A stretch of 56,011 nt of DNA, from NCBI GenBank assembly GCA_903939515.1, contig CAJAHH010000143.1:1-56011 (forward strand). The letters run 5' to 3'. A model generated the notes under the pieces. It worked only from the letters and a program-made list of their open reading frames with translations, did no database searches and was not told where the DNA came from. Shown here one piece after another: positions 2,967 through 23,969 of the stretch. A program made the position numbers and the translations under genes. Position 1 is the stretch's first letter; every line of letters starts with the position of its first letter. Source of the stretch: an uncultured Verrucomicrobiota bacterium (GTDB taxonomy: Bacteria; Verrucomicrobiota; Verrucomicrobiia; Limisphaerales; UBA9464).

Positions 2967-5474
2967 TTGAGAGATATAAATTTCGAAATAAGCCTACCAA
3001 AAATCAATTCTCCTCTTAGACGGTGGCGATTTGCCATCAGCCTGATTCTGCTAATAGGCTCTCAATTGCTAGGTGCAGATCGACTGGGCGAGCGTGTCGT
3101 GGCTGGCGAACGCGATGAGAATTCCAGCAAACGCGTTCAGGAACTGTTGGGTTCAAACTGCGTCACATGCCACGGAGCCAGCGATCCGAAAGCGGGTCTG
3201 CGACTGGATCGACTTCAGGTGGATTTGCAGAAGCATCCCGACGCCGCCAGACAGTGGCAACTGGTCCTGAGCGCGATTAGCGATAACGAGATGCCGCCTG
3301 CGAAGGAAAAACAGCTCGCCGCGGACGATCGGACCTATCTCGTAAAGTGGATCGAAGCGGAGCTTGAACGTTTCGTTGAATCGTCGACTGCTGATCGACC
3401 TGCTCTCCGTCGGAAGCTGACGAGAATGGAGTATCAAAATACGATGCGCGACCTGCTTCAAATCGAAATGGATTTCGCCCGCGATCTGCCTGCTGACCCC
3501 ATTTCTTCAGACGGATTTTCCAATGATAGTCGACTGCTTGAACTAACACCGGTGCATCTTGAGGCCTATCTGAAGTGCGCACGAAGTGCCTTGCAACGAG
3601 TCATCGTTTCCCACCCGCGGCCTGATGAGTTCCATCACCGTTTTGATCGCTCCAACGTTTCCAATTGGCTGGGTGAGTCGCATATCGCGAGTGAACTTGG
3701 GAGGCAGCAGCAGTTTTTAGCGAAGATCGAGAAGGACTATCCGGAGCAGGGTGAGTTTTTGGTTCGCGTGGCTGTGGAGGCCAAACTCCAGTCCAATTGC
3801 GGCTTCCCGCTTTTGGAAGTCTCCGTTGGCTATCAACCCGATACGGAAATTCTGTTTCGCGAGTTCCCGGTGACAGAAGTCAATGCAGCGGGCGATCACG
3901 TTTTTGAGTTCAAGGGACGGATCGAAGACTTTCCGCTGCCCGTTCGCGGCCAAGGAAAAATCCCGGGCTTGGTGGTGCGAGTGCGAAATATCTATGACGA
4001 CGGCTCGAAACTGCCAAAGGGAGCCAAAGGCAAAGACGAGAAATTTGCTTATCCGGCCGAGCCGCACCTGCCTGTGCTGCAGGTGAAATCAGTCGAGTTT
4101 CATGGTCCGATTTTCGACACTTGGCCGCCGGCGCATCATGCCAACATCGTCACGAAAAATGGTTCCGATCAACAAGTCCGGCGACCCGACGTGCGACGAA
4201 TTCTCTCTGCGTTTGCCAGGCGGGCGTTTCGGAGGCCGGTATCGGACAAAGAGGTGGATTCGTTGTTGAAATTCCATGACAGGATCAAGCCCGGCTTTCC
4301 CAGGATTGAAGACGCGATACGCGAGACGCTGGCATTTGTGTTGATTCAGCCGGACTTCCTATTTTTTCCAGGCGCTCAGCACCAGCCATCGGTTCAAACG
4401 AAATCGCGCCCGACCGGCGACTGGGAGCTGGCTTCGAAGTTGTCCTATTTCCTGTGGAGTTCGATGCCTGACGAACGACTGTTTGATCTGGCGGAGGCCG
4501 GCTTGCTTAAGCAGCCGAAGATACTTCGCTCGGAAGTCGAACGGATGCTGATCAGTCCTAAGTCATCGGTATTTCTAGAGCAGTTTCCTGATCGTTGGTT
4601 GTCTCTGGACCTCATTGAGAACATCGAGATTAGTCGAGATTACCACCCGAATTTCAACGCACGTCTCAAGACGGACATGATCGGCGAGAGCCGGGCATTT
4701 TTTGCGGAGATGGTTCGTGAAAATCGCAGAATTCAGGATTTTCTGTTGGCAGATTTCACCATGTTGAACGAGCCCTTGGCGCGGCATTATGGGGTCTCAG
4801 GAGTGCTGGGTATGAAGTTTCGCCACGTGCGGATTCCAGCCGACCAGCACCGTGGTGGATTGCTTGGACAGGCAGGCTTCCTGTTGGCGGGCTCGACGGG
4901 CGCAGACTCGCATCCGGTTCGACGCGCCGTTTGGATTCGCGATCGCCTCCTAGATGACCCGCCACCGCCACCGCCGGCCAACGTGCCTAGCTTGGATTCC
5001 ATCGATCCGCAATTTCATCAGCTTTCGATGCGTGAAAAATTGCAGGCTCATCGCCGCGATCCCTCCTGTGCCAGTTGCCATCGCGATCTGGATCCTTGGG
5101 GCATCGCCCTAGAAAACTACGATGCCGTGGGCTTGTGGCGCACCGAAGTCCGGACCAAAAAAGGCGACAAGATGGTGACGTCACCGGTTGTGTCTAAAGA
5201 CTCATTTTCCAACGGCTCAGAGCTGGATGGACCCGATAAACTCAAGGAACGCCTGGCGTGCGAGTATAGCGATCAGTTCGCGCGATCCTTGATGCGGCGG
5301 TTGTTGACCTATGCCCTAGGAAGGTCGCTCGATTTGCGCGACCAAAAGCCAGTCAAAGCACTGGATGAAAAGTTTGCTGCTGCCGGATACCGGATGCGGG
5401 ACATGGTCCAGCTTGTTGTGTCCAGTGAACTGTTTAACAAACACGCAAATGAAGAAAAAATCTTGGCACCTTGA
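2967..5474 (+). CDS. DUF1592/PSCyt1 planctomycete-type cytochrome-like protein
   Basis: A secreted protein of 835 residues of the DUF1592 family, with the usual order PSCyt1, DUF1587, DUF1595, DUF1592, DUF1588, DUF1585. A haem-c-like CxxCH motif (CVTCH, residues 65-69) sits after the signal segment RFAISLILLIGSQLLGA. A second CxxCH (CASCH) lies near residue 701 in the DUF1588 part, followed by DPWGIALENYDAVG, a hallmark of the family. The only reasonable start in this frame is TTG at 2967; the first internal ATG comes well after the signal peptide. The next gene overlaps its 3' end by 26 bases, so the two are co-translated. DUF1592 proteins nearly always pair with a DUF1552 protein; the reaction is not known. 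By eye, base composition is less GC-rich than the neighbouring genes. Confidence 0.9.
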   Translation: MRDINFEISLPKINSPLRRWRFAISLILLIGSQLLGADRLGERVVAGERDENSSKRVQELLGSNCVTCHGASDPKAGLRLDRLQVDLQKHPDAARQWQLVLSAISDNEMPPAKEKQLAADDRTYLVKWIEAELERFVESSTADRPALRRKLTRMEYQNTMRDLLQIEMDFARDLPADPISSDGFSNDSRLLELTPVHLEAYLKCARSALQRVIVSHPRPDEFHHRFDRSNVSNWLGESHIASELGRQQQFLAKIEKDYPEQGEFLVRVAVEAKLQSNCGFPLLEVSVGYQPDTEILFREFPVTEVNAAGDHVFEFKGRIEDFPLPVRGQGKIPGLVVRVRNIYDDGSKLPKGAKGKDEKFAYPAEPHLPVLQVKSVEFHGPIFDTWPPAHHANIVTKNGSDQQVRRPDVRRILSAFARRAFRRPVSDKEVDSLLKFHDRIKPGFPRIEDAIRETLAFVLIQPDFLFFPGAQHQPSVQTKSRPTGDWELASKLSYFLWSSMPDERLFDLAEAGLLKQPKILRSEVERMLISPKSSVFLEQFPDRWLSLDLIENIEISRDYHPNFNARLKTDMIGESRAFFAEMVRENRRIQDFLLADFTMLNEPLARHYGVSGVLGMKFRHVRIPADQHRGGLLGQAGFLLAGSTGADSHPVRRAVWIRDRLLDDPPPPPPANVPSLDSIDPQFHQLSMREKLQAHRRDPSCASCHRDLDPWGIALENYDAVGLWRTEVRTKKGDKMVTSPVVSKDSFSNGSELDGPDKLKERLACEYSDQFARSLMRRLLTYALGRSLDLRDQKPVKALDEKFAAAGYRMRDMVQLVVSSELFNKHANEEKILAP

Positions 5475-6810
5475 TCGCCGCTCATTCTTGCGGGGCACCG
5501 GCCTGTTCGGCGCTGGAGTTTCACTCGGGCTTCCCTGGCTGGAATGTATGGGCAGTGAGAAATCCAAGGCGAAGGAAGTCGCCAAACGATTTTGCACGAT
5601 GTATTTCGGCTTTGGAGTCAGCCTTCCCAACGCGAAAGGTGGTGATGCTAAGTGGCGTTGGTTTCCGGAGTCCGAAGGGGCCAACTATCAATTATCCCAT
5701 ACGCTGGAGCCTATTCAGCCGCTTCGCGATAAGCTGACGGTGATCGGCGGACTCTCGCATCCCATGGGGCGCAAGATGGGGGCTCACGACACAGCCGATA
5801 CGTTTCTCACCGGTGCGTACTTGAACAATAAGTTCCTGCGAAACACGGTTTCTGCCGATCAAATTGCCGCGATGTCGTTGCGCGACAAGACTCGTTTCCC
5901 TTCGCTGGTGCTCTCCACCGATGGAGGCGTAGGAGAACCGACGCGATCTAGCACTCTTTCCTATGATGCCATGGGGCGTCCTATTCCTGCTTTGAACCAA
6001 CCGCTGCAGGTGTTTAATCGCTTCTTTGGTTCTGGCGACGAAAATTTGATTGATGAGCATCGATTGCTGCAAAGCAAAGCCAGCATGCTGGATCGAATCT
6101 TGGCTGATGCCAAATCGATGCGGCTGAGACTGGGAGATCAGGATAAGCAAAAGCTGGACGAATATTTGTCTTCAGTGCGCCAGATTGAACAGGGTGTCGA
6201 ACGAGCGCAGAAGTGGATGGAGATTCCAAGACCCAAGTTGCGAGACGAGGAACGGAACATGTTGCACTTGGATGCCGATGACAAAGCGCCATTAGTCTAT
6301 ATTCGGACCATGTACGATTTGGTTTACTTGGCGTTTCGGACGGATTCTACGCGAGTGGCGACCTACCAAATCACAAACATGGCCGATGGATCGTCCAAGG
6401 CAGGCAAGTTTCCGCAGCTAGAGGGTTTTAAGAGCTCGCTGCATTCATTGGCGCACGATTATGACAAGCCAGGTGGATCCGAAGCGCTTGGACGATGGGA
6501 CAGATTGATGGTTGAACAGTTTTCGTATTTTATCTCGCGACTGGCCAGTGCCCCTGATCAAGGTGGCTCAGTATTAGATAATTCAGTTATATTATACGGC
6601 AGCAGTAATAGTAATACCCACAATAATAGCAACTACCCATTGTTGCTTGCTGGCGGTGCGAACTTGGGGTTGAAGCACGGGCGCTACATGCGATTAGCTG
6701 AATCGGTACCGTTATCAAATTTATTGCTGACGATGTTGAATTGCGTAGGTGTCGAGACGGAACGGTTTGCCGATAGCACGGCTCGGCTCGCTGACGTGAC
6801 ACGAGCCTAG
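5449..6810 (+). CDS. DUF1552 family Tat-exported protein
   Basis: A 453-residue partner of the preceding DUF1592 protein. The start is set at ATG 5449, inside the 3' end of the upstream gene, because it places a twin-arginine signal right at the N-terminus (DRRSFLRGTGLFGAGVSLG). The frame is open 84 bases further upstream, but that adds a signal-less extension. The body is typical of DUF1552: FCTMYFGFGVSLPN early, a central FPSLVLSTDGG stretch, and a C-terminal part with SVILYGSSNSNTHNNSNYP and LLLAGG. The family is related to DUF1501 and the alkaline-phosphatase-like fold, but the substrate is unknown. Export folded through Tat suggests a cofactor or metal. The 3' part (6560-6660) is locally AT-rich. 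Confidence 0.9.
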   Translation: MKKKSWHLDRRSFLRGTGLFGAGVSLGLPWLECMGSEKSKAKEVAKRFCTMYFGFGVSLPNAKGGDAKWRWFPESEGANYQLSHTLEPIQPLRDKLTVIGGLSHPMGRKMGAHDTADTFLTGAYLNNKFLRNTVSADQIAAMSLRDKTRFPSLVLSTDGGVGEPTRSSTLSYDAMGRPIPALNQPLQVFNRFFGSGDENLIDEHRLLQSKASMLDRILADAKSMRLRLGDQDKQKLDEYLSSVRQIEQGVERAQKWMEIPRPKLRDEERNMLHLDADDKAPLVYIRTMYDLVYLAFRTDSTRVATYQITNMADGSSKAGKFPQLEGFKSSLHSLAHDYDKPGGSEALGRWDRLMVEQFSYFISRLASAPDQGGSVLDNSVILYGSSNSNTHNNSNYPLLLAGGANLGLKHGRYMRLAESVPLSNLLLTMLNCVGVETERFADSTARLADVTRA

Positions 6811-6827: not shown

Positions 6828-6857
6828 CTGATAGAAACCGATAGAAACTGATAAAAA
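6828..6857. repeat. Three tandem 10-base repeats
   Basis: Units ctgatagaaa, ccgatagaaa and ctgataaaaa follow each other exactly, one helical turn apart, 17 bases after the DUF1552 stop. The phased A-tracts would bend the DNA. The array could be a protein-binding site or slippage; neither can be decided from sequence alone. Confidence 0.7.
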
Positions 6858-7010
6858 TTGCTTTTTACACGCCGCGCTATCATGGCGCAGTTCATCCATA
6901 TCTTGGAGCAACGAGCGTCGCTAAACGAGCGTTGTCAAATATCCGATTTCATTCCCGAAGTTTCCCGAACAAAAGGCAAATTGCGGATAGCCCTTCATTA
7001 ACCTCCGCGA

Positions 7011-7230
7011 AGAAACCCAGCGCCTCGTCCGCCTCTAAAAGACAAACTTCGTCTTCCGCCATGATTCGGACACCAATCCGATCCCACCGGAAAACTGTCC
7101 GATATCAGCCCGGACGACTGTGCGCTTTAAATCGGAACGGTGTCCGATATCAAATCGGATTGGTGTCCAGTTTGCTTCGGAATACGCAACAACCAAGCCC
7201 GATGCAGGCCGTGTGCCCTCACGCGGCGTC
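7011..7230. repeat. Left copy of the repeat flanking the HEPN/MNT pair, split by an insert
   Basis: Two segments, 7011-7045 and 7189-7230, match the continuous right copy 8029-8101: 30 of 35 and 39 of 42 bases identical. The right copy joins the same two segments directly through acaa. The left copy therefore contains an insert of about 143 bases (7046-7188), and acaa appears on both sides of it. Confidence 0.8.
7046..7188. mobile_element. Small hairpin insert (MITE-like) inside the left repeat copy
   Basis: A perfect 15-base inverted repeat, ggacaccaatccgat at 7068-7082 and its complement at 7154-7168, spans most of the insert. Inside it, tgtccgatatca occurs twice (near 7097 and at 7141) in direct orientation. 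The possible 4-base target duplication acaa (7042-7045 and 7189-7192) fits insertion into an older repeat. The inverted repeats sit about 20 bases in from the insert ends, so it is not a classical terminal-repeat MITE. No transposase is encoded. Confidence 0.5.
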
Positions 7231-7311
7231 TGGACTGTGAAAATGAAACCACCATTTACCCGCCACCCATCAGTGGCTATGCTAGCGGCGACGTAACCGA
7301 AACAATCCACC

Positions 7312-7725
7312 ATGAACAACCAAGACATCCGTTGGATTCAACGTCTGGAAAATTATTCCAAGGCGCTGCAGCAGTTGACCCGCTTCATAGAGCGGGGTGA
7401 GCTCAACGAATTTGAGGAGCAGGGTTTGATTCAGAGCTTTGAATACACTTACGAACTGGCTTGGAATACGCTTAAGGATTTGTTTGAGGATCAGGGGGAA
7501 ACCAACCTCACTGGCAGCCGGGACGTTTTCCGGTTGACGTTCCGGCGCGGGTTGGTGGAGAACGGCGAGGTGTGGATGGATATGATCAGAAGCCGGGGAC
7601 TGACGGTTCATACTTACAACGCGAAAATCGCCGAAAGCATCGCCACCACCATTCGCCAAGCATATTATCCGGAGTTTGTAAAATTGGAGGTGCAGTTGAA
7701 AAAGTTAAGCAAGGAAGTGAGATGA
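7312..7725 (+). CDS. HepT-like HEPN toxin (HI0074 / nucleotidyltransferase substrate-binding family)
   Basis: A 137-residue helical HEPN protein of the HI0074 family, the toxin half of a type VII toxin-antitoxin pair. It carries the HEPN RNase motif R-X4-H-X-Y: Arg95, His100 and Tyr102 in RGLTVHTY. In characterised HepT proteins the tyrosine of this motif is the residue the partner modifies with AMP. The N-terminal half has the family signature QSFEYTYELAWNTLKDLFE. Its stop overlaps the start of the next gene (ATGA arrangement), so toxin and antitoxin are translationally coupled with the toxin first. The pair lies between two copies of a repeat, which suggests acquisition as a unit. An older view treats these proteins as substrate-binding subunits of the nucleotidyltransferase; the intact motif favours an active toxin. 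Confidence 0.9.
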   Translation: MNNQDIRWIQRLENYSKALQQLTRFIERGELNEFEEQGLIQSFEYTYELAWNTLKDLFEDQGETNLTGSRDVFRLTFRRGLVENGEVWMDMIRSRGLTVHTYNAKIAESIATTIRQAYYPEFVKLEVQLKKLSKEVR

Positions 7726-8078
7726 GCGCCGCCCGCTTTGGCCTGACCGAGCCGACGATTGAAAAGATTGGCGGCGTGCTGGCCCAGCATCCGCAGGTGG
7801 AGCAGGCGGTATTATACGGTTCGCGGGCCAAGGGCAATTATAAGAACGGTTCGGACATTGATCTGACATTAATGGGCGATGAATTGAGCCATGATGATTT
7901 GCTGAAATTGATAGGCGAACTGGATGACTTGTTGTTGCCTTACATGATTGACCTTTCAATTTTCCACCAGCTGACGCATCAGGATTTGATCGACCACATC
8001 CGGCGGGTGGGCGTGGTGTTTTACGAAAAGAAACCCAACGCCTCGCCTGCCTCTACGAGACAACCAAGCCCGATGTAG
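7722..8078 (+). CDS. MntA-like nucleotidyltransferase antitoxin
   Basis: A 118-residue minimal nucleotidyltransferase of the MNT family, the antitoxin partner of the HEPN gene it overlaps by 4 bases. The motif GS-X10-DxD is exact: Gly33 and Ser34 in YGSRAKG, then Asp45 and Asp47 in SDIDL. A third acidic residue is likely Asp73 in PYMIDLSIF. Related MntA enzymes silence HepT by transferring AMP to its motif tyrosine. The start ATG 7722 is supported by the overlap and by the purine-rich aaggaagtgag before it. The frame is open back to 7572, but that part is only a shadow of the toxin gene. The last 17 or so residues (KPNASPASTRQPSPM) are encoded by the right copy of the flanking repeat, so this tail is probably not original. 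Confidence 0.9.
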   Translation: MSAARFGLTEPTIEKIGGVLAQHPQVEQAVLYGSRAKGNYKNGSDIDLTLMGDELSHDDLLKLIGELDDLLLPYMIDLSIFHQLTHQDLIDHIRRVGVVFYEKKPNASPASTRQPSPM

Positions 8079-8101
8079 GCCGCGTGCCCTCACGCGTCGT
8101 C
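8029..8101. repeat. Right copy of the repeat flanking the HEPN/MNT pair
   Basis: This 73-base sequence matches the left copy (7011-7045 plus 7189-7230) without the insert. It begins inside the antitoxin gene and supplies its last codons and stop. The two copies put the pair on a segment of roughly 0.9-1 kb bounded by direct repeats. Confidence 0.8.
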
Positions 8102-8175
8102 GGGGCAATTTCTTACTCCGCGTTCTCCGCGCCTCCGCGTGAGTCTTGGCCCCAGTCTCCGGCGAGGCTTTGAGC

Positions 8176-8307
8176 TCACCGAACTGAACTGAGGACGGGG
8201 CGGAAGCCCAGATCGTTGAACCGAAAGCCCGGGATGAACCTGCCTCGATCGGCCGAGCGAACGAACCGGGCGCCGAAGTACCCACTGCCCCCGCGGTCCA
8301 CGCGGTT
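8176..8307 (-). pseudogene. C-terminal relic of a SUMF1/formylglycine-generating-enzyme-like protein
   Basis: Read on the minus strand, this stretch encodes NRVDRGGSGYFGARFVRSAD followed by RGRFIPGFRFNDLGFRPV and then a stop at 8176-8178. That is the typical end of a SUMF1 (FGE-sulfatase) domain: R-V-x-R-G-G-S, then R-x-A-x-R, then G-F-R. No start codon or N-terminal domain lies upstream, because the DUF1501 gene ends at 8320 in the same direction. It is a truncated remnant of a secreted SUMF1 protein. Confidence 0.6.
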
Positions 8308-8319
8308 GGAGCCTATTGG

Positions 8320-9795
8320 CTATGCGATCATCTGCTTGAGCACGTTGGCGCGGATGTCGGTGAGCCGGCGAATGCGGCCAGCGTAATGGTAGGTCAGGTT
8401 CTCGTCGTCGAGCCCCAGGAGGTTGAGGAGGGTTGCATGCACGTCGCGGATGGGGATCGGTTCATCGGCCGCACAGAGGCTGTAGTCGTCGGTCGCGCCT
8501 ACCGTGGCGCCGCCTTTCACGTCGCCGCCCGCCATCCACATGCAGAGGGCGTGGCCGTTGTGGTCGCGTCCGACGTTGTCGCCGACGGCCCCGTTGACAA
8601 AGGACGTGCGTCCCATCTCGGAGGCCCACACGACGAGGGTTTCATCAAGCAATCCGCGACGCTTGAGGTCGGTCAGCAGTCCGGCCACGGGCAAGTCTAC
8701 CTCGCGACTGTGTTTGATCATGCCGTCTTTCACATTGCCGTGATCGTCCCAGCTGTCCTTGCCGATTTGCACACCGTGCAAGAGGAGGGTGTGGCGAACG
8801 CCCCGCTCGACGAGGCGGCGGGCCAGTAGGCATTGGCGTCCAAAGCCGGCCGTCTTCGAATTATCCAGTCCGTAGAGGGCCTTGGTTTCTTCTGTTTCGC
8901 CGGAGAGATCGACAAGTTCGGGCGCGGCTGCCTGCATGCGAAAAGCCAGTTCGTAGGCTCGGATGCGGGCCTCGAGTTCACTGTCCTTGCCTCCGTCGCC
9001 CAGATGGCGGCGGTTGAGCCAGGCGAGCGCGTCGAATTCCTGTCGCTGTTGCGCAGCGCTCACACCTTGCGGCCGGGCGAGATCTACGATTGGGGTACCG
9101 GTGGGACGCAGGAAGGTGCCTTGGTAGGTCGCGGGCAGATAGCCGTTGCTCCAGACTGCCGCGCCGTTGGTGGGCGCACCGCGCGGATCCTGAATAACGA
9201 CGTAGCCCGGCAGATTCTGGTTCGTGCTGCCGAGCCCGTATTGCACCCACGAGCCAACCGACGGGCTGCCCGGAAACTGGCTGCCGGTCGCGACGTGGAG
9301 CGTGGCGGGACCGTGATTTTGGTTATCCACCTGGATGCCATGAATGAAGGCGAGGTCATCGACGTGCCGGGCGAGGTTCGGAAATAACTCGGAGATGTAA
9401 CGGCGCGACTGGCCGTGCTGCTGAAACTTGAACGGGCTTCCTACGCATTGATGGTCAAAGGTCAGACGCCCTTGCAGTTCGCCGGAAGCGATCTTGGGAA
9501 TGTGCGGAATCCGTTTGCCGTGGAACTCGTTCAGCTTGGGTTTGTATTCGAACGAATCCACCTGGCTGACGCCGCCGCACATGAAGAGCATGATGCAATT
9601 CTTGGCCTTGCGAGGAAACGAGGGCGCTTTACCGGCGAGAGGATCGATGATGACGGAAGCGGCCCGAGCCTCGCGTGCCAGAAGGCCAGTGAGCGCCAGC
9701 CCGCCGAAGCCGTGGAACATCCGCCCGAGAAAATCCCTGCGACTGGAATTGTATCCCTGCGACCACAGCGCGCCTGGAAATGGATCATTCGACAT
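8320..9795 (-). CDS. DUF1501 family Tat-exported protein
   Basis: A 491-residue DUF1501 protein. The start at 9795 gives a twin-arginine signal near the N-terminus (SSRRDFLGRMFHGFGGLALT) and overlaps the stop of the upstream DUF1553 gene by 11 bases; the frame is open 51 bases further but without improving the signal. Family landmarks are KNCIMLFMCGGVSQVDSFEYKP, the HGIQVDNQNHGPATLHVATG segment, DDHGNVKDGMIKHSREVD, VVWASEMGRTSFVNG and RDHNGHALCMWMAGG. DUF1501 belongs to the alkaline phosphatase/sulfatase-like group and is found in nearly fixed pairs with DUF1549/DUF1553 proteins. The substrate is unknown. It is the second gene of a two-gene operon and should act outside the cytoplasmic membrane. 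Confidence 0.92.
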   Translation of the reverse strand: MSNDPFPGALWSQGYNSSRRDFLGRMFHGFGGLALTGLLAREARAASVIIDPLAGKAPSFPRKAKNCIMLFMCGGVSQVDSFEYKPKLNEFHGKRIPHIPKIASGELQGRLTFDHQCVGSPFKFQQHGQSRRYISELFPNLARHVDDLAFIHGIQVDNQNHGPATLHVATGSQFPGSPSVGSWVQYGLGSTNQNLPGYVVIQDPRGAPTNGAAVWSNGYLPATYQGTFLRPTGTPIVDLARPQGVSAAQQRQEFDALAWLNRRHLGDGGKDSELEARIRAYELAFRMQAAAPELVDLSGETEETKALYGLDNSKTAGFGRQCLLARRLVERGVRHTLLLHGVQIGKDSWDDHGNVKDGMIKHSREVDLPVAGLLTDLKRRGLLDETLVVWASEMGRTSFVNGAVGDNVGRDHNGHALCMWMAGGDVKGGATVGATDDYSLCAADEPIPIRDVHATLLNLLGLDDENLTYHYAGRIRRLTDIRANVLKQMIA

Positions 9796-11938
9796 AAACA
9801 AATTCGTTGGCATTAAGCAGCACGCGGCAAACTGGAGCCAGCGCATCGCTGCTACCCGTACTCGTTGCCATGAGCGCCTGCATCCGTTCGGATTCGTCGG
9901 GCGTAGGCTCGCGACCGAGCGCGGTCTTGAAAGCCAGTTGGATTTGCGTCGCGGGTGATTCCCCGGCCTCCTTGCGGATGCGCGCGGCCAAGTGAGTGGC
10001 TTCTTCGTTGGCGAAGCGCCCGTTATACATAGCCAGCGCCTGCAAGGGCGTCACCGAAGCCTGCCGTCGGTCGCGGGTGGCGTCGCACACCACCGAGTCA
10101 AACGTTTGCAGGAACGGCATAGTCATCGAGCGTTGCTGATAAATGTAAATGCTGCGCTTACGACCTTCCGGACCTTCCTGCGTGGCCCACTTGCTGTTAT
10201 CGTATTTTACTTCCTCGGCCAACCCCTCGGGCAGCGGAGGGAAAATCGGTAGCCCGAATTGTTCCGGGTTCAATCGTCCGCTGACCGCCAGCACGGCATC
10301 GCGCACCGCCTCGGCTTCCAAACGCCGCGTTCGGAAATGCCAGAGGAGTGTGTTCTCCAGATCCGCCGTTTCCGCCTTGGAATCGTGATGCCTCGACGAC
10401 TGGCGATAGGTGGCGGAGTTGAGGATTAGCCGATGCATGGCCTTGAGGCTCCACTTGGAATCGATGAACCGGCGGGCCATCCAGTCGATCAACTCGGGAT
10501 GTGAGGATCCGCCACTGAGTTTGCCGAAATCGCTCGGAGTGGCCACCAACCCGCGCCCAAAGTGCCAATCCCAAAGACGATTGATCATCACCCGTGCCGT
10601 CATCGGATTATCTGGGCTCACGATCCATTGGGCGAGAGCGAGGCGGCGGCTGCGGGTCGGCCAACGTTTGAAGGGATCGAGGCGAATCGGCGCGGGGTTC
10701 TGATGGCCCGTGATGACGCTCGGAAAACCGGGTTCGACAACCTCACCAGGCTTGTCCCATTCGCCGCGATTGAGGATCCGCGTCTCCGGCACACCGGGTT
10801 CGAACGGCGGCCCGTAGGAGTGACGCAACGACATGGCGACGGGTTGCAGACGCTTGAGATCCTGTTCAAGCAAGCGGACGCGAGCTTTTGCTTTACTCCG
10901 TTGTTCACGTTGCTCCGGCGTGAGCGAAATCTTGGGAACCGATTTCTTGCCGAGGTCCTCGATCTTGTCGAATGCGGCCAAGAGAGTGCGCGCCTCACCG
11001 AGTTCTGCATTGCGTTGCTCGGTGAGCTTCGTTGCCCACTCCTTTTCCCCCTTTCGATAGAACTCTGCCGGGAGCGGCCCGCCGATTTGGAAAATATCCC
11101 CCGGCAGCGGGCGCTGGAGTTGGACCGTCGAAAAGAAGGCCTTCATCCGATAGAAGTCCTTGGTCGGAATGCGGTCGTATTTGTGGTTGTGACATTGCGC
11201 GCAGCCGACCGTGAGACCTAGAAAGACGGAACTTACGGTCGCTGTCATTTCGCTGAGCATTTCATGGCGGGAGGCGTCGCCCCGCGGTTCGGTGAATGGG
11301 GCCAGGCGCAGAAATGTCAGCGCGACGGTCGGTTCTGGCTTCAGATCAGAAAGTTCGCCTGCGCCCATGATCTCTTCTGTTTCATCGCCCGCGATCTGTT
11401 CGATTACGAATTTATCGTAGGGCTTGTCCTGGTTGAAGGCATCGATGACATAATCCCGGTACCGCCAGGCGTTCGGAAAATCGGGATCCCCTTCATAGCC
11501 AGCGGTGTCGGCGTAGCGGGCGAGGTCGAGCCAGAAACGCGCCCAGCGTTCGCCGTAGCGCGAGTCGTCCAGTAGCTTGTCCACGAGCTTTTCATAGGCC
11601 TTGGGATCGGGATCGTTCACGAAGGCGTCCACTTCGCCTGGAGAGGGCGGCAAACCGATCAAATCAAAATAAAGCCTGCGGACGAGAGTGCGAGCGGAGG
11701 CTGCCGGCGCGAGCGTGAGGCTCTTTTCCTCCAGTGCGGCCAGAATGAAGTTGTCGATCCCGTTGGTGACCCGGTCTGCGTGCCGGACCACGGGAGGCTT
11801 GATGTCGGCAAGCGAAGTGAAAGGCCAGACGGCAACAGCATTCGTTGGTGCCGATTCCGCGAGCAGAACCTTCGCCAGCAGGCAGCTCGCAAGGCAGAGG
11901 CTGAAAATCATCACGATGCTGCGGAGAGGGCGAGTCAC
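9785..11938 (-). CDS. DUF1549/DUF1553 (PSCyt2-PSD1) secreted protein without the cytochrome domain
   Basis: A protein of 717 residues from a GTG start at 11938, chosen because AAGGA lies 6 bases upstream (11945-11949, minus strand) and the signal peptide (MIFSLCLASCLLAKVLLAES) then sits at the N-terminus. The frame is open to an ATG at 12046. DUF1549 comes first (ARTLVRRLYFDLIGLPPSPGE, then RYGERWARFWLDLARYADT and CAQCHNHKYDRI), and DUF1553 forms the C-terminal half (SRRLALAQWIVSPDNPMTARV, RLWDWHFGRGLVATPSDFGKL, SATYRQSS). Unlike the homologue at 36.3-38.4 kb, it has no N-terminal PSCyt1 CxxCH domain. It overlaps the DUF1501 gene and is co-expressed with it. The reaction is unknown. Confidence 0.92.
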   Translation of the reverse strand: MTRPLRSIVMIFSLCLASCLLAKVLLAESAPTNAVAVWPFTSLADIKPPVVRHADRVTNGIDNFILAALEEKSLTLAPAASARTLVRRLYFDLIGLPPSPGEVDAFVNDPDPKAYEKLVDKLLDDSRYGERWARFWLDLARYADTAGYEGDPDFPNAWRYRDYVIDAFNQDKPYDKFVIEQIAGDETEEIMGAGELSDLKPEPTVALTFLRLAPFTEPRGDASRHEMLSEMTATVSSVFLGLTVGCAQCHNHKYDRIPTKDFYRMKAFFSTVQLQRPLPGDIFQIGGPLPAEFYRKGEKEWATKLTEQRNAELGEARTLLAAFDKIEDLGKKSVPKISLTPEQREQRSKAKARVRLLEQDLKRLQPVAMSLRHSYGPPFEPGVPETRILNRGEWDKPGEVVEPGFPSVITGHQNPAPIRLDPFKRWPTRSRRLALAQWIVSPDNPMTARVMINRLWDWHFGRGLVATPSDFGKLSGGSSHPELIDWMARRFIDSKWSLKAMHRLILNSATYRQSSRHHDSKAETADLENTLLWHFRTRRLEAEAVRDAVLAVSGRLNPEQFGLPIFPPLPEGLAEEVKYDNSKWATQEGPEGRKRSIYIYQQRSMTMPFLQTFDSVVCDATRDRRQASVTPLQALAMYNGRFANEEATHLAARIRKEAGESPATQIQLAFKTALGREPTPDESERMQALMATSTGSSDALAPVCRVLLNANEFVYVE

Positions 11939-12824
11939 GGCGAATCCTTGCCGGGGTTCGACCGGCTTTTCATTGAGATTTGAGCGGTGTGGCACCAGCA
12001 CGTTTGGGTTTTTAGTCGTTCGCCAAAATGCGAATGGAACCGTCATTTGGAGTTTGGCCGGGTTCAGGTGAAAGATTACATGGATTCTGAGCGCGGTTGG
12101 GTGTGAGTAAACTGGAATTCACACGAGGGAAGTACAAATGCAGTTTGGCGAACTGAAGCTTGAGGCAACGATCGAGCGTTTTAGAGGTGTTTCAGCAAAA
12201 TTAATGGTTTCAGCGAGGGGTGAAACTTTCGTTTGAGCTGAAACTCTCAATCAGTGGCCGCCGTCACCGTGCGGTTTCTTACCCTGGCCAATTCCTGTTG
12301 AAACGCCTTCGGGGAGTAGTCACCGACTCTCAGCCACTCCTCTTGGACAGCAGGCAGCGCCAGAATGGACTTGATGTGCAGAGACAGCATTCCTCCGAGT
12401 CATCGGCGTCGAGCACTCCGCTTCGCCGGCACTTCCAGGCGACCACGACAGGGTTCATTCAGAGTTAAAAAACTCGGGCCCTTCGGAAGCCATCGTGACC
12501 GGAACGTGGCTCGGCAATCTGCAGGGCTTCCCACAGTTGTGGTCGCTGGTTGTCGATTAAGAGAAACCGTCGACTGGAGTCCGCTTTTTCGGGGTGATCA
12601 ACCGGTGATGAGGTCGCGGATGGCGTCTGCTACCTCGGCGGCACGCGCCAGGGTCTTTGTCGCGGTGACCTAGACCATCGACGCGATCCCGATGCGTTCT
12701 TAGAGGGGCTCCGGGCTGCTCTCTTTATGCCTTGGCCCGAGCCAAACGCATCAGTCCTGCTGCAAGCGGGTGACTCACTGACTGGAGAGCCGGATGCGGG
12801 AAATCTACCTGTCCGGTTGGGAAG
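11939..12824. other. Long gap with possible decayed coding fragments
   Basis: No intact gene can be supported. On the minus strand three pieces look protein-like. Positions 12603-12672 read VTATKTLARAAEVADAIRDL and end in a stop, with TAG directly before. Positions about 12467-12560 read LIDNQRPQLWEALQIAEPRS. Positions 12247-12390 form a 47-residue frame beginning MLSLHIKSILALPAVQEEWL. They lie in order on one strand in different frames, which suggests a decayed gene, but no family is recognised. Confidence 0.35.
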
Positions 12825-12852
12825 GAGGGAGGGCCAACAACGGCCCTCCCTC
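12825..12852 (-). terminator. Hairpin after the phytase/5'-nucleotidase gene
   Basis: A perfect 11-base-pair stem, gagggagggcc (12825-12835) and ggccctccctc (12842-12852), closes a 6-base loop about 60 bases past the stop of the gene at 12914. No clear T-run follows on the minus strand, so it may be a weak terminator or an mRNA-stabilising hairpin. Confidence 0.5.
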
Positions 12853-12913
12853 TGTTAAACTGATCCGTAAGGAGTGATTTGTTAGGAGTTCGCTTTTTGA
12901 CACTCCGCGATGA

Positions 12914-15900
12914 TCACTGCACCACAACGATGCGGTAGTAGCGCTGCCCGTTGGGGGTGCGGTTGTCGAGGAGTTCGCGGAGGGTTCCGGTTCCTTGGGT
13001 GGTGACGGGGAGTCGGACCCAGGTGCCGTCGAGCGACTCCTTGGATTCCGCGGCGTAGATCCGTCCGGGCAGCGACCTGAAGGTCAAGCGGGTCGCCGGG
13101 CTCGGTCCTTCGATTCGTCGAACCATCGGGGCGAGCACCATGTCGCCACGGCGGGAGAGGTTCTGGATGCGGAGGTCGTCCGCAGCCACGGTGTCGGCCT
13201 CGCGGAACACTTCGATGGCGCGAAGGTAGTCGGCCAGAGCCTTCTGTTCGCCGCCGTCGGTGTTGAATAAGACGGTGGTGCCGGTTGGGACCAGGTCTAT
13301 CCGGTTGGTTCCCCGGGTGAGCGGTAAGTAGCTGTCGCCGCCGGCCGCCATGAAGTTCAGCGTTACGATGCGGAAGGTGCGGTTTGTATCGCCCACGACC
13401 TGGCCGTTCTCGACGACCACGTCCTGGCTGTCGTCGGCGCGGACAACGACGAGGTTGCGAAGGCGTTCACCGGGGAGGCTGATCGAGGTGGGGACGCCGT
13501 TGGTGTCGCGCACGTACGTCATCGGAGCGTTGGTCGGCACGAAGCTGAAGCTGATGCCTGAAACCTGCGGGAACTGTCCCGGGGTGCCGCTGCCGGCAAC
13601 CGCCCACTCCATGGTGTCGCGCAGCTGCTGCGCCGTGAGGGTGACAAGCGACAGTGTGTTGTTGAACCGGAGGCTGTTCTCGATGTCGAGCTGGCTAACT
13701 TCTCCAGCCTGCTTGCCGACGCGCGGGTTGGCAGGAGGCGGAGTTAGGGAGACAAAGCCGCCGGAGGACGAGACCGCGCCGATGGAATCACGGATGCCAC
13801 CGCCGTTCTTGAGGGAGACTACGGTGTTGGGATCGGTTTGACGCGCGCGCCAAAGGTTAGCGTCGGCGGTCAGGTCGCCCAGGTTCGTCTCCTCGGTGCG
13901 AACACTGTTCCGGATGCCGTTCAGGTACACCGAGGTGCGTCCAAAACGGTTGCCGTCCTTGCCGTCCACGATGTTGGCCAAGCGAGTGACGACGTCGACG
14001 ACGTTCGAGGACGGGGCCACGTTGCCGGTGTCGAGCACGCCCTGGATGTCTGTGGCGTAGGCGCCGCTGCGGTTGTCGAAACCGGTGAGACGGCCGGCCT
14101 CGTCAAAGCTGGCGATCAGGCGGCCGACATAACGGTAGCTGGAACCGGTGTTCACCACGTAGACCGGCTCGCCGGTGGCAGAGGTGAACAGGCTCGGGTA
14201 GGAGCTTGCGACGAAGTCCTCCGGCCGCAGGCGATCGGAAGGCTTGGCGAACACGCTGTGGGAACCGCCGGCAACAATGATGTCGACGTCGCGCAACTTG
14301 CTGGCGAGCTCGAACTCACGGGAGAACTGCTGGAGGTGGGTCATAACGATCACCTTGTTCACCCCGAGGGCGATCAGCCCGTCAACCGCCGCCTGGATGT
14401 CGGCGAGGAGGTTCTGGGAGACGCCGATGTTTCCGGGGGAGGAGATCGATCGGAGCTCGGTGACCGTGCCGCCAACCAGACCGATCTTCTGTCCGCCGAT
14501 GGTGATGATTGCGCTCTTGGCGACTTTGTTCTTCATCGCGGAAACCTCCTGGGCATCGGCGGTGACGAGGCTGGCCATGCTGCTGTCGGTGGCGAAGTTT
14601 AGGTTCGCGCTGAGGTAGGGGAACGCTGTGCCCGCGTAGCCGGCGGCGGTGTCCGGGAGGATAAGACTGCGTACCTGGGCCGTGTTGTCGTCGAACTCAT
14701 GGTTGCCGAAGCAGGAGGCATGGATGCCGAGGGCGTTGAGGATGGTGATGTCGGCGCGGCCTTTAATCCCGTTGAAGGGGGCCGCGGGATCTGCACTCGC
14801 GGTGAAGAACGGGCCGGGGATGTAGTTGTCGCCGCTGGCGAGAACCAGCGTGGCGGAGGGATACGCGGACTTGAGCGCATTCAACACCGACGAAAACCGC
14901 GGGGCGTCGTCTAGGGCGGCGATGCCGGCCTCGAAGTCTGAGGCGTGGAGCACCTGGAAGGTGAGCGCACCGCCGATGGCGCGGGTGACGGTGAGGTTGA
15001 CCGGGGCGCTGGTGGAAGTGAGCCCGAGGTTGTCAGTGGCCACCGCAGTCAGAACGTGGGTGCCGACTGGAGCATTGGCCAAGGTGAAGCTGAACGGCGC
15101 GTTGGTCGAGGTGCCGATCTTGGCAGCACCGGCGAAATAGTCGACCGAGCGGACTGAGCCGTCGATGTCGCCTGAGGAGACCCGGAACGCGAGGCTGTAG
15201 GGTGCCGACGCGGTGGTGTTCGCGGTCGGCGCGGTGATCGCAACCGTGGGCGCTATGTTGCCGGCGGTGATGTTGATGCTGCGGCTCGCCTCGGAGACGG
15301 CGCCGCTGTTGTCGGTGGCTACGACGCGGTAGGTGTGCGTACCGACCGTGGGATTGAAGTTCCAGACCCAGGGGAAGGCGGTGTCTTCACCCAGCTTCAC
15401 ACCGTCCTCGAAGAACTCGACCTTGACCACGATGCCGTCGGTGTCGGCCACGGTGGCGGTGAAGGGCAGGGCACCCTGGGCGTAGGAGTTGCCGGACGGC
15501 AGGCTGATCGCAATCGTCGGGGCGGCGTTGGCAGCGCGGACGGTGCTTACGCCGGGCAGAGTCACGCGGTAGGCGAGGAGCATAATGTCCACCTGAACCG
15601 CGTTGGTTCCGACTGGGACGCCATTGTGGTAGACGACGTCCGACTTGAAGTCGTTGTCGTTGCCCAAGAGCATCAGGTAGTCCTCCGGATTTGCGGGATC
15701 CTTGAGCGGGATTAACGAGATCGCCTCCCACTTCTCGCTCAGCGAGTTCACATCCTGGTTCGTGCTGGTGTTCAACCCGAACTTCGCGAGCTGCGCGGCA
15801 TCGAGCAGGTCGACGAAGTCCTGACGGGCGACCGGCGTAATCCCTTCGGGCAGCGTGGTGCCGGTGTTGGGCAGTGATATCTGGCCCGGCGCGCCTCGCT

Positions 15901-16987
15901 CGAGGTCGTAGGCGGTCCCGGCTATATTCGACGCGGTCGCGGTTGAGGCGAGGACAACCCGCTTGTAGAGCGGCGAAAGGCCCGGGGTTGCGCCGCGGCC
16001 GATGCCATCGCGTTCCAGCACCAAAAAGGTGCTGGCGTTCAGCGCAACGACTTCGCTGACCGGTGTGTGGTTGTTGGTCGTCGTGTTGCCGTTGAGCGTG
16101 AGCTGGTAGACGTGTTCGGCGACGACTTTCCCATAGGTGGCGGACGCGGGGTCGGCGTCGAGTTGGAGGATGCGGGTGTTGCGGCCGAGGCCGCCGGCGC
16201 CGCCATCCTGAATGGTCGGCGACTGGAGGAATGCCACCAAGCGCTTGCCATCGGGGGTCAGGGAGAGTCCCTCGAGACCGCGGTTGTTGCGGCGTCCGGA
16301 GGTCGGGACGGAGTTGCCGGTGAAGTTCAGCCGGCCCGGGAACGAGCCTTGCGCCGGGAGCAGCGCGGCCGGGGGAAGGATTGTCTCCATGAGTCGGGCC
16401 TCGGAATTGAAGCGGAACATCGCCGGGCCGTATTCGTCGCTCACCCAATAGCCGCCGTCAGCGGTCAGCACCAAACCCTCTGCGTCCAGAGACCGCCGGC
16501 CGCCACCGATGGAACCGGCCGGAGACTGGGGCACCACTGGGGCGTTGGTGTTGGCGGCATCGAATCCTGTGTAGGGAAGGCCCTCGCTGCCGTAGCGGAA
16601 CAAGACCGTCGCGGTGTTGGTGAAGGTGATTTGTCCTTGAGCGACCGGACTTTCGCCGTAGTAAGGCGAGATGACGAAGTCGTACATCTCGAGGCGAGGA
16701 CGGTAGTCGGTGGCACCATCGCCGAATCCGCGATCCGGCAGGCCCACGATACGGCCGGAGATCCGGCCCGCGGTGTAGACCAGCGAATTGGTGTCGATGG
16801 CCATGGCAGAGAATCCGCCGAGGGTGTCCTGCCGGCCGTCACCAGCCTTGTCGAAGGTGGCGGCCGGCACACGGCCGACGCCCACTAGGCCCTTGTTGAC
16901 GAATCCGGCGAACTGTCCGAACGCCAAAGTCGCAGAGGCCGCGAGGATGGGTATTGATAGAATTTTCCTGAGTAGCATTCCTGCCAC
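12914..16987 (-). CDS. Secreted esterase-like phytase / Ig-like / 5'-nucleotidase fusion protein
   Basis: A 1357-residue exported protein with several domains. A signal peptide (LLRKILSIPILAASATLAFG) is followed, at about residues 30-480, by an esterase-like phytase domain (LGGFSAMAIDTN, SLDAEGLVLTADGGYWVSDE, GLEGLSLTPDGKRL). Two Ig-like repeats follow at about 490-670 (APTIAISLPSGNSYAQG and APTVAITAPTANTTAS, each ending in GTHxxxxVATD). A 5'-nucleotidase-type metallophosphatase occupies about 675-930 (HASDFEAG, ASGDNYIPGP, FGNHEFDDN, THLQQ, GGSHSV), and its C-terminal substrate domain lies at about 985-1230 (NLGDLTADANLW, SLKNGGGIRDS). The first metal motif is DFE rather than the usual DxH. 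The likely role is release of phosphate from phytate or nucleotides outside the cell. The start is GTG 16987 or ATG 16978. Confidence 0.88.
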   Translation of the reverse strand: MAGMLLRKILSIPILAASATLAFGQFAGFVNKGLVGVGRVPAATFDKAGDGRQDTLGGFSAMAIDTNSLVYTAGRISGRIVGLPDRGFGDGATDYRPRLEMYDFVISPYYGESPVAQGQITFTNTATVLFRYGSEGLPYTGFDAANTNAPVVPQSPAGSIGGGRRSLDAEGLVLTADGGYWVSDEYGPAMFRFNSEARLMETILPPAALLPAQGSFPGRLNFTGNSVPTSGRRNNRGLEGLSLTPDGKRLVAFLQSPTIQDGGAGGLGRNTRILQLDADPASATYGKVVAEHVYQLTLNGNTTTNNHTPVSEVVALNASTFLVLERDGIGRGATPGLSPLYKRVVLASTATASNIAGTAYDLERGAPGQISLPNTGTTLPEGITPVARQDFVDLLDAAQLAKFGLNTSTNQDVNSLSEKWEAISLIPLKDPANPEDYLMLLGNDNDFKSDVVYHNGVPVGTNAVQVDIMLLAYRVTLPGVSTVRAANAAPTIAISLPSGNSYAQGALPFTATVADTDGIVVKVEFFEDGVKLGEDTAFPWVWNFNPTVGTHTYRVVATDNSGAVSEASRSINITAGNIAPTVAITAPTANTTASAPYSLAFRVSSGDIDGSVRSVDYFAGAAKIGTSTNAPFSFTLANAPVGTHVLTAVATDNLGLTSTSAPVNLTVTRAIGGALTFQVLHASDFEAGIAALDDAPRFSSVLNALKSAYPSATLVLASGDNYIPGPFFTASADPAAPFNGIKGRADITILNALGIHASCFGNHEFDDNTAQVRSLILPDTAAGYAGTAFPYLSANLNFATDSSMASLVTADAQEVSAMKNKVAKSAIITIGGQKIGLVGGTVTELRSISSPGNIGVSQNLLADIQAAVDGLIALGVNKVIVMTHLQQFSREFELASKLRDVDIIVAGGSHSVFAKPSDRLRPEDFVASSYPSLFTSATGEPVYVVNTGSSYRYVGRLIASFDEAGRLTGFDNRSGAYATDIQGVLDTGNVAPSSNVVDVVTRLANIVDGKDGNRFGRTSVYLNGIRNSVRTEETNLGDLTADANLWRARQTDPNTVVSLKNGGGIRDSIGAVSSSGGFVSLTPPPANPRVGKQAGEVSQLDIENSLRFNNTLSLVTLTAQQLRDTMEWAVAGSGTPGQFPQVSGISFSFVPTNAPMTYVRDTNGVPTSISLPGERLRNLVVVRADDSQDVVVENGQVVGDTNRTFRIVTLNFMAAGGDSYLPLTRGTNRIDLVPTGTTVLFNTDGGEQKALADYLRAIEVFREADTVAADDLRIQNLSRRGDMVLAPMVRRIEGPSPATRLTFRSLPGRIYAAESKESLDGTWVRLPVTTQGTGTLRELLDNRTPNGQRYYRIVVVQ

Positions 16988-17412
16988 ACTATCCAGTCGT
17001 AGGTTACGGGAGGGTTGGGCTGCTGTTAAGCCTGTGTTAACTCAATTCTAGGCACCCTTGTGCTTAACTGCATATCAGGTGCGTTTTTCTTGAAAACTTT
17101 TGCCAGCCTTTGGCAATGGCTTGGCAGTAGGGACTGAGGTTGCCTCCTGCCCCCCGCACCGATCCGACTCGGCAGAATGACTGCCGCCCTGACGGAAGTC
17201 TTCATGCCAGGAGGGCGAACCAGGTCTGCGGTGAGGTCTGCGGTGAGTACGTGCCGAGTCAGTGCTCACCTCTCAGGGAGGCCAGCGAGGTGTTACGGTG
17301 AAACCCCAGCAAAAACATGACTGTGGATGCTCTGAACTCAGAACCAGCGAAACAGCGGCCTTAAAACAAAATCTCTTGCTCGTGGAGCGCAAAAAGAACA
17401 TTTTACTGTCAA
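16988..17412. other. Divergent intergenic region before the TerC gene
   Basis: No gene seen. It must hold the promoters of the phytase fusion (minus) and the TerC gene (plus). A 12-base unit, aggtctgcggtg, occurs twice in tandem at 17222-17245, and the bases after it can fold through gtgagtac and gtgctcac. No manganese (yybP-ykoY) riboswitch consensus could be recognised before the TerC gene. Confidence 0.5.
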
Positions 17413-18147
17413 ATGAACTTTTTAGCAGAGCTCCAAACACCGGCCTTTTGGGAGAGTTTAATGTTGATCATCTGGATCAACATCATCCTGTCAGGAGACA
17501 ACGCAGTGGTGATCGCTTTGGCGTCCCGTTCTCTGCCGCCCGATCAGCAGAAGAAGGCGGTGCGGTGGGGCGCCGGAGGGGCTGTGGTTCTCCGCATCCT
17601 CCTGACGGCGGTCGCCTTCAAGATGCTTCACTGGCCGTATCTCAAGATCATCGGTGGACTCCTTCTTCTATGGATCGCGATCGGCTTGCTTGTTCCGAAT
17701 AAAGAAGAGGAACACGTGGACAGTCCCAACAACCTTCTCAAGGCGATCAAGGCCGTGCTCATCGCGGATTTGGTGATGAGTCTGGACAACGTGCTGGCCG
17801 TCGCTGGTGTGGCCAAGGACAGCGTTGCATTGCTCGTCATCGGTCTGGCTGTCAGCATTCCGTTGGTGGTTTTCGGGGCGACAATGTTGATGAAGTTGAT
17901 GCAGCGATTCCCTGTCATCATCACCGCAGGCGCAGGTGTTTTGGGATGGGTTGCGGGAGAAATGCTGGTCACCGACCCCAGTTCGAAGATTTGGATCGAG
18001 AAAAACCTTACGTGGATGCACATAAGTACCCCGATCGGGGGTATTAGTTGGTCACAAATCGTCGGTGCTGTTTTGGTGGTCGTGGTCGGCAAGGCATTGG
18101 CGGCTCGCAAATCGAAGGGCCATTCTGAGGAACCCCATTCGGCTTAA
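17413..18147 (+). CDS. TerC-family integral membrane protein (YjbE type)
   Basis: A 244-residue membrane protein with about seven hydrophobic segments. The two halves carry the paired acidic signatures of TerC proteins: NIILSGDNAVVIALAS near the N-terminus and LIADLVMSLDNVLAVAGVA in the middle, each with an Asp-Asn that likely coordinates a metal. Characterised relatives export manganese or supply it to exported metalloenzymes, and others are linked to tellurite resistance. Metal specificity cannot be read from sequence here. The gene stands alone between a divergent and a convergent neighbour. The start ATG 17413 places the first membrane segment right after a short N-terminus; the preceding bases are A-rich without a clear Shine-Dalgarno. 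Confidence 0.9.
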   Translation: MNFLAELQTPAFWESLMLIIWINIILSGDNAVVIALASRSLPPDQQKKAVRWGAGGAVVLRILLTAVAFKMLHWPYLKIIGGLLLLWIAIGLLVPNKEEEHVDSPNNLLKAIKAVLIADLVMSLDNVLAVAGVAKDSVALLVIGLAVSIPLVVFGATMLMKLMQRFPVIITAGAGVLGWVAGEMLVTDPSSKIWIEKNLTWMHISTPIGGISWSQIVGAVLVVVVGKALAARKSKGHSEEPHSA

Positions 18148-18524
18148 ACACCCGACTCCCCGGAGCCGCCTGCCGCTTCTTAATGAGGGTGAATAGGATT
18201 TTAGTTCCTTCTCCCTATTTTCAGGAGTCAGCAATGCAATAGTGCTGACTCCATTCCCGACGGTCGGGCTCTAGGACGGCGGGGCTCTAGAAAAGGACGG
18301 GCTGCAACCCGGCCAAGCACTCACTGGCTCTCCGCTCTCACTGGGTCTGAGGGGATTGCCAACTCGCTCCGAATCGGCCTTCAACCCGAAGCGATCGATG
18401 GATTGTCTACTGCCGTTGAATGATCTGCAGTCTCAGACGATGGAGTGATGCCGCACCGGTCCGCGCGCCGAAGGAGGCGCAGCACTGAGCGCGATCGACA
18501 AGTCGATCAAAAGATTCTGGATGT
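18148..18524. other. Convergent intergenic region, nothing recognised
   Basis: This 377-base gap lies between the ends of the TerC gene and the glycosyltransferase gene. Short G/C-rich inverted bits (for example cgggctgcaacccg near 18299-18312) are present, but there is no T-run typical of a terminator and no coding frame. Confidence 0.4.
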
Positions 18525-19283: not shown

Positions 19284-19327
19284 AAATACAAAGTCTGAGA
19301 CTGCCGGAATTGAAGGGATGGGCGCAT

Positions 19328-20095: not shown

Positions 20096-20098
20096 AGG

Positions 20099-21028: not shown

Positions 21029-21296
21029 GGCTCGTTTTCTTCAAAAATAGGCTCCGCAAATCAATTTAGAGGAGGCCCTTTAAATTTTACTAAACAGGTC
21101 TCCAATGCAGCACCTTTCGTTCCAAGGAAAGTACGCTCGTGTGGTTCGTGGTTTTCTCTAAAGGAAACGAACACTTAAAAAACCGTTCAGTGGAGCTTTG
21201 GCGTCCGCTGGAAAGAGTCTCAGCCCTCAGCCTCGCGAACGACGAACGCCATCGGCCTGCGCAGATCGACGGCTTTTTCTTTGCCGAATTCCTGGC

Positions 21297-22622: not shown

Positions 22623-22670
22623 CAGGTTAGAGGAATGGAGGACAGGACGGGCAGAGAATCCGGGAAAGGC

Positions 22671-23963: not shown

Positions 23964-23969
23964 CGCGGC

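Follow-up and report, generated by a model that had tools for sequence, protein, structure and literature searches.

The HEPN-MNT gene pair in the window (the whole 56,011-nucleotide stretch of DNA analysed) is, at a probability of roughly 0.8, an accessory module orphaned from a type I restriction-modification operon whose genes stood in the order hsdM-hsdS-HEPN-MNT-hsdR. The direct repeats on either side mark the origin of the pair, as debris of the lost operon joined to a REP palindrome, and not its way of moving. The features of the locus are as follows:

5365 to 6810, plus strand: DUF1552 (HXXSHH) gene, the left flank that fixes the locus in relatives (PF07586, E=3.4e-76).
6946 to 7045, plus strand: decayed hsdS 3' end, first half of the left copy (matches the G034 hsdS 3' end over 73 nt at 81%, E=9e-14).
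7048 to 7188, no strand assigned: non-autonomous element of 141 bases, IS21-like at its ends, that is inserted into the left copy (9 copies aligned).
7189 to 7233, plus strand: second half of the left copy, linker and REP palindrome with a GCAG tag, GCCGTGTG-CCCT-CACGCGGC (repeat search; predicted stem-loop).
7236 to 7311, plus strand: HEPN leader, starting at the former hsdS stop position (TGA, 7238-7240).
7312 to 7725, plus strand: HEPN gene of the PF08780 / HI0074 family, putative RNase toxin (PF08780, E = 1.9e-40, 138.2 bits).
7722 to 8078, plus strand: MNT nucleotidyltransferase gene, putative AMP-transferring antitoxin (PF18765, E = 1e-17, 64.5 bits; PF01909, 36.2 bits).
8028 to 8059, plus strand: hsdS 3'-end fragment, first half of the right copy, out of frame in the MNT gene (31/32 bases, E ~4e-11).
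8060 to 8104, plus strand: second half of the right copy, linker and GTAG REP palindrome (8075-8096 exact to the search pattern).

The HEPN/MNT-type identity of the pair, as given in the original prediction, was borne out for both genes by the PF08780 and PF18765 matches, and the end of the HEPN gene is joined to the start of the MNT gene by an ATGA overlap. Both motifs had been called intact and are so: R95-x4-H100-x-Y102 in HEPN by direct reading and alignment, and GS33-34-x10-D45-x-D47 in MNT as read from the translation. A PF08780 HEPN adjoining an MNT-domain gene, with RX4HXY and GSX10DXD, places the pair in class I HepT/MntA. HEPN passes the HI0074 subfamily model of NCBIfam (86.2 bits, cut-off 55.8), and the equivalogs NF047751 and NF047752 scored below their cut-off of 60 bits (21.4 for HepT and 47 for MntA); the pair was therefore filed under this broader class. 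The nearest solved structure to HEPN was 8xdj (E=1.5e-37), and the closest solved MNT gave E=1.2e-25, with 8xdj and 8xeh among the nearest. PADLOC run on the pair returned no match for HEPN and partial matches of MNT to candidate systems (best E = 1.9e-9). By analogy with these families, the pair is probably a HepT/MntA-type RNase silenced by AMPylation.

Between the window genome (G000) and its genus relative G017 (contig JAPLUH010000435.1), dN/dS was 0.113 for HEPN, 0.134 for the MNT core and 0.084 for the flanking DUF1552 gene; the low values for HEPN and MNT, read as purifying selection, suggest that both genes are still functional. The last ~17 codons and the stop of the MNT gene lie in repeat DNA, the TAG stop belonging to the GTAG of the REP, and this hsdS/REP-derived tail gave a dN/dS of 1.28, a figure resting on 5 changes only. 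Phage or plasmid cargo was considered and rejected: no close relative was found among 94 plasmid records (81 of them Piscirickettsia) and three phage records, all below 60% identity. A second HEPN-MNT pair is present in the window genome (G000:C116:14196-14564, locus L006), with no type I match nearby; its HEPN has close relatives in seven other genus genomes, mostly beside an apparent metal-ATPase gene (by eye).

The repeats claimed to flank the pair were recovered in the window repeat search as 7183-7233 with 8054-8104 (51 nt, 88%) and 7010-7045 with 8028-8063 (36 nt, 86%). It had been missed that both motifs form a single unit in the right copy (8028-8104), the halves of the left unit standing ~143 bases apart, split by an element inserted at ~7048-7188, and that the MNT gene runs with its 3' end into the right copy. 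The repeats are composites, in which the 3' end of hsdS, the type I restriction specificity gene, is followed by a GTAG-type REP palindrome. When 8025-8104 was used as a query against the whole genome, a match was obtained at 7183-7233 with E = 4.4e-12, far past chance.

The hsdS half was recognised by searching the 36-base motif against the collected loci, where it led to the 3' ends of hsdS genes; in G090 it is read in frame as ETLSEETQRLARLYERKHAALEALKKSLLHQAFTGEL and then a stop. The fragment in the right copy matched 31 of 32 bases in the hsdS ends of G090, G034, G031, G189, L182 and L177, and scored lower against G008:C17, G128 and G085:C10. An hsdS remnant should resemble the conserved 3' end of HsdS and stand in the correct order relative to the pair, and both were found. 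The left block reads ISFPKFPEQKANCG-stop-PFINLREETQRLVRL; because its DNA matches the hsdS end of G034 (G034:C237, CAMAUY010000237.1) and its reading carries a stop and a shift, it is a decayed hsdS end, weak at the protein level, where the best tblastn value was E=0.004 against the HsdS of G034 and three further HsdS queries gave 0.056 to 0.56 (1.5 kb subject in each case). The HEPN leader lies directly 3' of the hsdS stop in G008:C111 and in G195/L176, and DNA similarity of the window to G195 (84.9%) ends at 8026, right before the hsdS fragment. At three or fewer mismatches, a 24-base hsdS-end pattern occurred at 96 places in 80 of 320 order genomes, places not individually confirmed as hsdS (reversed control, 11); two places less than 3 kb apart on the same strand were found in four loci (G000, G031:C10, G189:C435 [CAMAWP010000435.1] and G008:C17).

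Neither the hsdS ends nor any other part of the 56 kb window was matched by the HsdM, HsdS or HsdR queries used in tblastn at E 1e-3, so that no intact operon was found there, and no hsdM or hsdR remnant adjoining the pair was recognised. We infer a former operon from the short hsdS ends in the window together with the operons of relatives. Because the Methylase_S profile has no match in G017 and one weak match elsewhere in G000 (24.2 bits, cut-off 22), the enzyme that once accompanied the pair seems to have been lost and the pair kept, which is not certain given assemblies 94 and 96% complete.

The relatives' operons place the pair between hsdS and hsdR. The layout hsdS-HEPN-MNT-hsdR was found in L177 and L182, and an hsdS end followed by HEPN, MNT and hsdR in G195/L176 and L184 (= G189). 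L182 is a complete operon encoding HsdM, a KilA-N protein, HsdS, HEPN, MNT and HsdR (Pfam order N6_Mtase+HsdM_N, KilA-N, Methylase_S, NTase_sub_bind, Polbeta, ResIII+EcoEI_R_C). Outside the genus, the closest relative found was G195 (G195:C37, WBXJ01000037.1); its HEPN is 91% identical to that of the window, and its pair lies just 5' of hsdR. An ATGA overlap joins MNT and hsdR in L177, L182, G189 and L290, and is absent in G195. In the HEPN tree, built from 22 of 24 rows (two were omitted for a stop codon inside the translated stretch), the window, G017 and G195 form one clade with support 98/94. Pairs stand beside hsdS ends elsewhere too, in G008:C111 (HsdS E=8e-13), G085 and G034 (~23 bases, by eye).

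The survey of the order covered 80 loci, into which 81 of 89 PF08780 rows fall (the eight outside being G001:C158, G176:C473, G103, G053, two of G305, G026:C103 and G019:C177); three of the loci (L307, L346 and L347) gave no HEPN match with the queries used. Type I genes were found near PF08780 pairs at 15 of the 80 loci from the order and, among named loci, at 7 of 80, two overlapping sets, with queries taken from one type I family, so that others could be missed. Their presence at a minority of PF08780 loci counts against a general rule. At four further order loci of the 80 (window, G017, G034 and G085), a remnant of the hsdS end was recognisable only from DNA similarity or by eye. Gene order also departs from that in the parts of PMC3710099 drawn on here, where MNT is almost always the first of the two genes: of the 76 named loci in which the two genes were recognised, 75 had MNT immediately 3' of HEPN. 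G008:C111 (L049, 4943-5260) holds a broken HEPN gene directly 3' of an hsdS end; it is a second example from the genus, one in decay. In G085:C8 (L048, 732-2075), HEPN-MNT is followed by an hsdS-end remnant, a Fic gene and then, by eye, an apparent hsdR start; several accessory genes share one operon slot at this locus.

It is possible, though less likely than not, that the hsdS end, HEPN and MNT form a unit exchanged among type I operons through short matches between hsdS 3' and hsdR 5' sequence, the window being one landing. In G195 the hsdR start is present twice, first as 48 bases with one difference 5' of the hsdS end and again after MNT, and the hsdR/hsdS join lies on GCGTTGAAG, common to the hsdS end and the hsdR start; the slot is moreover occupied by Fic between the hsdS-end remnant and hsdR start in G085 and, in G090 and G313, by unnamed genes lying between hsdS and hsdR, and KilA-N lies between hsdM and hsdS in L182. 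However, G195 is the one clear case, a lead and no rule, the window pair comes without hsdR sequence, and ordinary recombination between homologous operons would look alike. More widely, and as a tentative proposal that we consider somewhat unlikely as a whole, HEPN-MNT of Verrucomicrobiota could be a built-in part of the type I operon (hsdM-hsdS-HEPN-MNT-hsdR, with the MNT/hsdR ATGA overlap), a PrrC-like guard with its own AMP-adding antidote, which would be swapped together with the last hsdS bases at short hsdS-end/hsdR-start matches and would outlive the operon as a selfishly kept orphan, as in the window.

The DUF1552 left flank is present in five of 19 genus genomes (G000, G017, G008, G014 and G005), its gene having 93% DNA identity in G017, G008 and G014; the G005 contig stops inside the gene. 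In G017 the pair lies right behind the DUF1552 gene with the right copy only, window ~6840-7239 and hence the left copy being missing. Different DNA without the pair follows the gene in G008 and G014 (the G014 contig ends ~640 bases past it). Because these two have the same DUF1552 site without the pair, the pair is most simply an acquired module, gained in the ancestor of G000 and G017.

A 24-base linker pattern, running from the last hsdS bases into the first REP bases, was found with three or fewer mismatches at three places in 2 of 320 order genomes: two of them in G000 (where the left copy has 3 mismatches), one in G017 and none in the 318 others. Its confinement to the pair locus points to local duplication, and to neither background nor a dispersed repeat. 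The worry that the repeat was genome-wide background is thereby answered, since the REP half recurs in the genus and the linker pattern does not. To the original prediction the layout had suggested a small cassette that entered or moved by recombination between the repeats. Acquisition stands, from the empty sites of G008 and G014; the repeats as insertion ends of the pair are not supported, G017 having the right copy only, which also goes halfway towards a pair conserved at this locus with no repeats. That the terminal direct repeats served as recombination sites for entry or exit of the pair is improbable: these empty sites and two good repeat copies around the pair speak for it, but the pair has a single copy in G017, both repeat halves have other origins (hsdS end and REP), no copy was seen 3' of the DUF1552 gene in G008 or G014 over the ~640 to 800 bases read, and the proposed check for an empty site keeping one repeat copy found none by the linker pattern (three or fewer mismatches) among 320 genomes.

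The left copy was probably ancestral and lost in G017, as judged from two genomes, because the left hsdS end sits at the hsdS position of intact operons and the HEPN leader of G000 starts at the hsdS stop. The locus is carried by these two genomes only, both fragmented assemblies; with the left copy absent from G017 and no third genome, it is the position argument that places this copy in the common ancestor.

The element that splits the left copy was aligned as the window copy and eight others (G000, G003, G014, G017 and G018), all of which extend to TACGCA and then diverge. In G017:C206 both such ends flank an IstA-like gene (rve, Mu-transpos_C) and an IstB gene, a complete relative, and the 141-base element is therefore an IS21-type non-autonomous derivative. 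ACAAAC and ACAACC (7042-7047 and 7189-7194) may be its target duplication. The statement that no transposase is present thus holds for the surroundings of the pair as read, but overlooks this non-autonomous element within the left copy.

On the right, 8109-8163 is a TTTCTTACTCCGCGTTCTCCGCGCCTCCGCGTGAG-type repeat present in many of 96 genomes compared, and 8165-8313 is a short stretch repeated in genus genomes at 73 to 98% (G000:C57, G008:C32, G001:C238 and others), whose minus strand by eye resembles what we take to be the C-terminal end of a formylglycine-generating sulfatase-modifying enzyme. Over 8276-17363, comparison with G017 shows the pair followed 3' by ~320 other bases and then by a homologue of window 17363-25205; the DUF1501/DUF1549 block (8320-11881) has its homologue, at 84%, across the DUF1552 block on the opposite side. 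A rearrangement breakpoint forms the right flank of the pair.

In the REP half, the GTAG form consists of GTAG followed by GCCGCGTG-CCCT-CACGCGGC; the right REP has one stem mismatch, and the left is tagged GCAG and has a C changed to T in its stem. At three or fewer mismatches the pattern had four copies in the window genome and was present in 8 of 19 genus genomes (reversed control, 1 match). Matches to Y1_Tnp (RAYT-type) were found in 18 of 19 genus genomes, and the physical link between REP and RAYT is one below-cut-off Y1_Tnp match between REPs of the same type in G001:C74. A tag with an immediate stem-loop, four copies in the genome and Y1_Tnp across the genus together identify the palindromes as GTAG REPs. 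An integron-like attC reading, prompted by repeat clustering in relatives, was dropped once the halves had been recognised as GTAG REP and hsdS end. With both elements common in the genus, a RAYT (Y1) transposase might have placed the REPs independently on either side of the pair, the hsdS match being incidental, but this is very improbable, as the same hsdS end, linker and REP occur in both copies (86 to 88% identity), the linker pattern was found nowhere else in the 320 genomes, and two separate landings would not copy at least 30 bases of hsdS.

As an orphaned operon module, the locus would have arisen in the following way. The left repeat is the decayed 3' end of hsdS, straight 5' of the HEPN leader as in intact operons, and is interrupted by a GTAG-type REP palindrome. 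The hsdS-end::REP composite recurs, joined to the MNT gene at its 3' end; this second copy would have come from a local duplication of hsdS::REP, for which AAGAAACCC, a short match shared by the ends of hsdS and the MNT gene, may have been the site. This microhomology as the duplication site is a guess, and the MNT 3' ends of relatives differ. Alternatively, [hsdS::REP-HEPN-MNT] may have been duplicated in tandem and most of the second unit lost. An IS21-type mini-element splits the left copy, and G017 would have lost its left copy after the duplication. HEPN and MNT show purifying selection though no hsdS is found in G017 and only one weak match in G000. Judging from characterised relatives, HEPN would be an RNase toxin that MNT inactivates by AMPylating the tyrosine of RX4HXY. 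Within an intact operon, the pair would plausibly act upon restriction failure, as PrrC does, and we hypothesise by this analogy that the restriction enzyme controls HEPN there. The repeat-bounded cassette is now readable as a history of restriction operon, REP insertion, duplication, enzyme loss and survival of the pair, and with the intact relatives it can be tested whether a type I enzyme is guarded by an AMPylating toxin-antitoxin.

Several known systems resemble parts of this locus. GTAG REP palindromes with RAYT transposases are described in passages of PMC3733652, with O. terrae as a verrucomicrobial example; the likeness here is the GTAG tag with a stem-loop at once, known in Verrucomicrobia, and the difference is that copies of this type are few, four in the genome at three or fewer mismatches. 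In open-licence literature, as represented by titles and abstract openings, no hsdS-HEPN-MNT-hsdR layout was found reported, which is weak evidence of absence. The 'HEPN-M' row for PF08780/DUF86 in the table of PMC3710099 gives methylase and nuclease domain fusions and, in that row, no restriction operon. Coupling of HEPN toxins to restriction has been proposed generally in portions of the same paper, which counts 16 or more clades of HEPN proteins with links to such systems, and also in PMC3506569.

For the pair itself, the HepT/MntA type VII system of Shewanella (SO_3166/SO_3165), in which MntA is described in part of PMC7641770 as putting AMP on the RX4HXY tyrosine of HepT and so blocking its RNase, likewise has a PF08780-/PF01934-type HEPN adjoining MNT, with RX4HXY and GSX10DXD; it differs in that the window pair falls under the NCBIfam equivalog cut-offs given above. 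The HEPN-MNT module of 8xdj/8xeh/8xeo, which provides the closest solved HEPN and MNT to the window pair, is probably the Legionella pneumophila module of PMC11586414, in which MNT AMPylates HEPN according to the part of that paper used here. PrrC, in the type Ic operon PrrI, shares with the pair a HEPN-fold RNase encoded together with type I hsdMSR genes (parts of PMC3710099 and PMC3506569); the restriction enzyme keeps PrrC silent, and PrrC carries an ABC ATPase of its own, whereas the pair has a separate MNT partner and, in the window copy, stands with no enzyme beside it.
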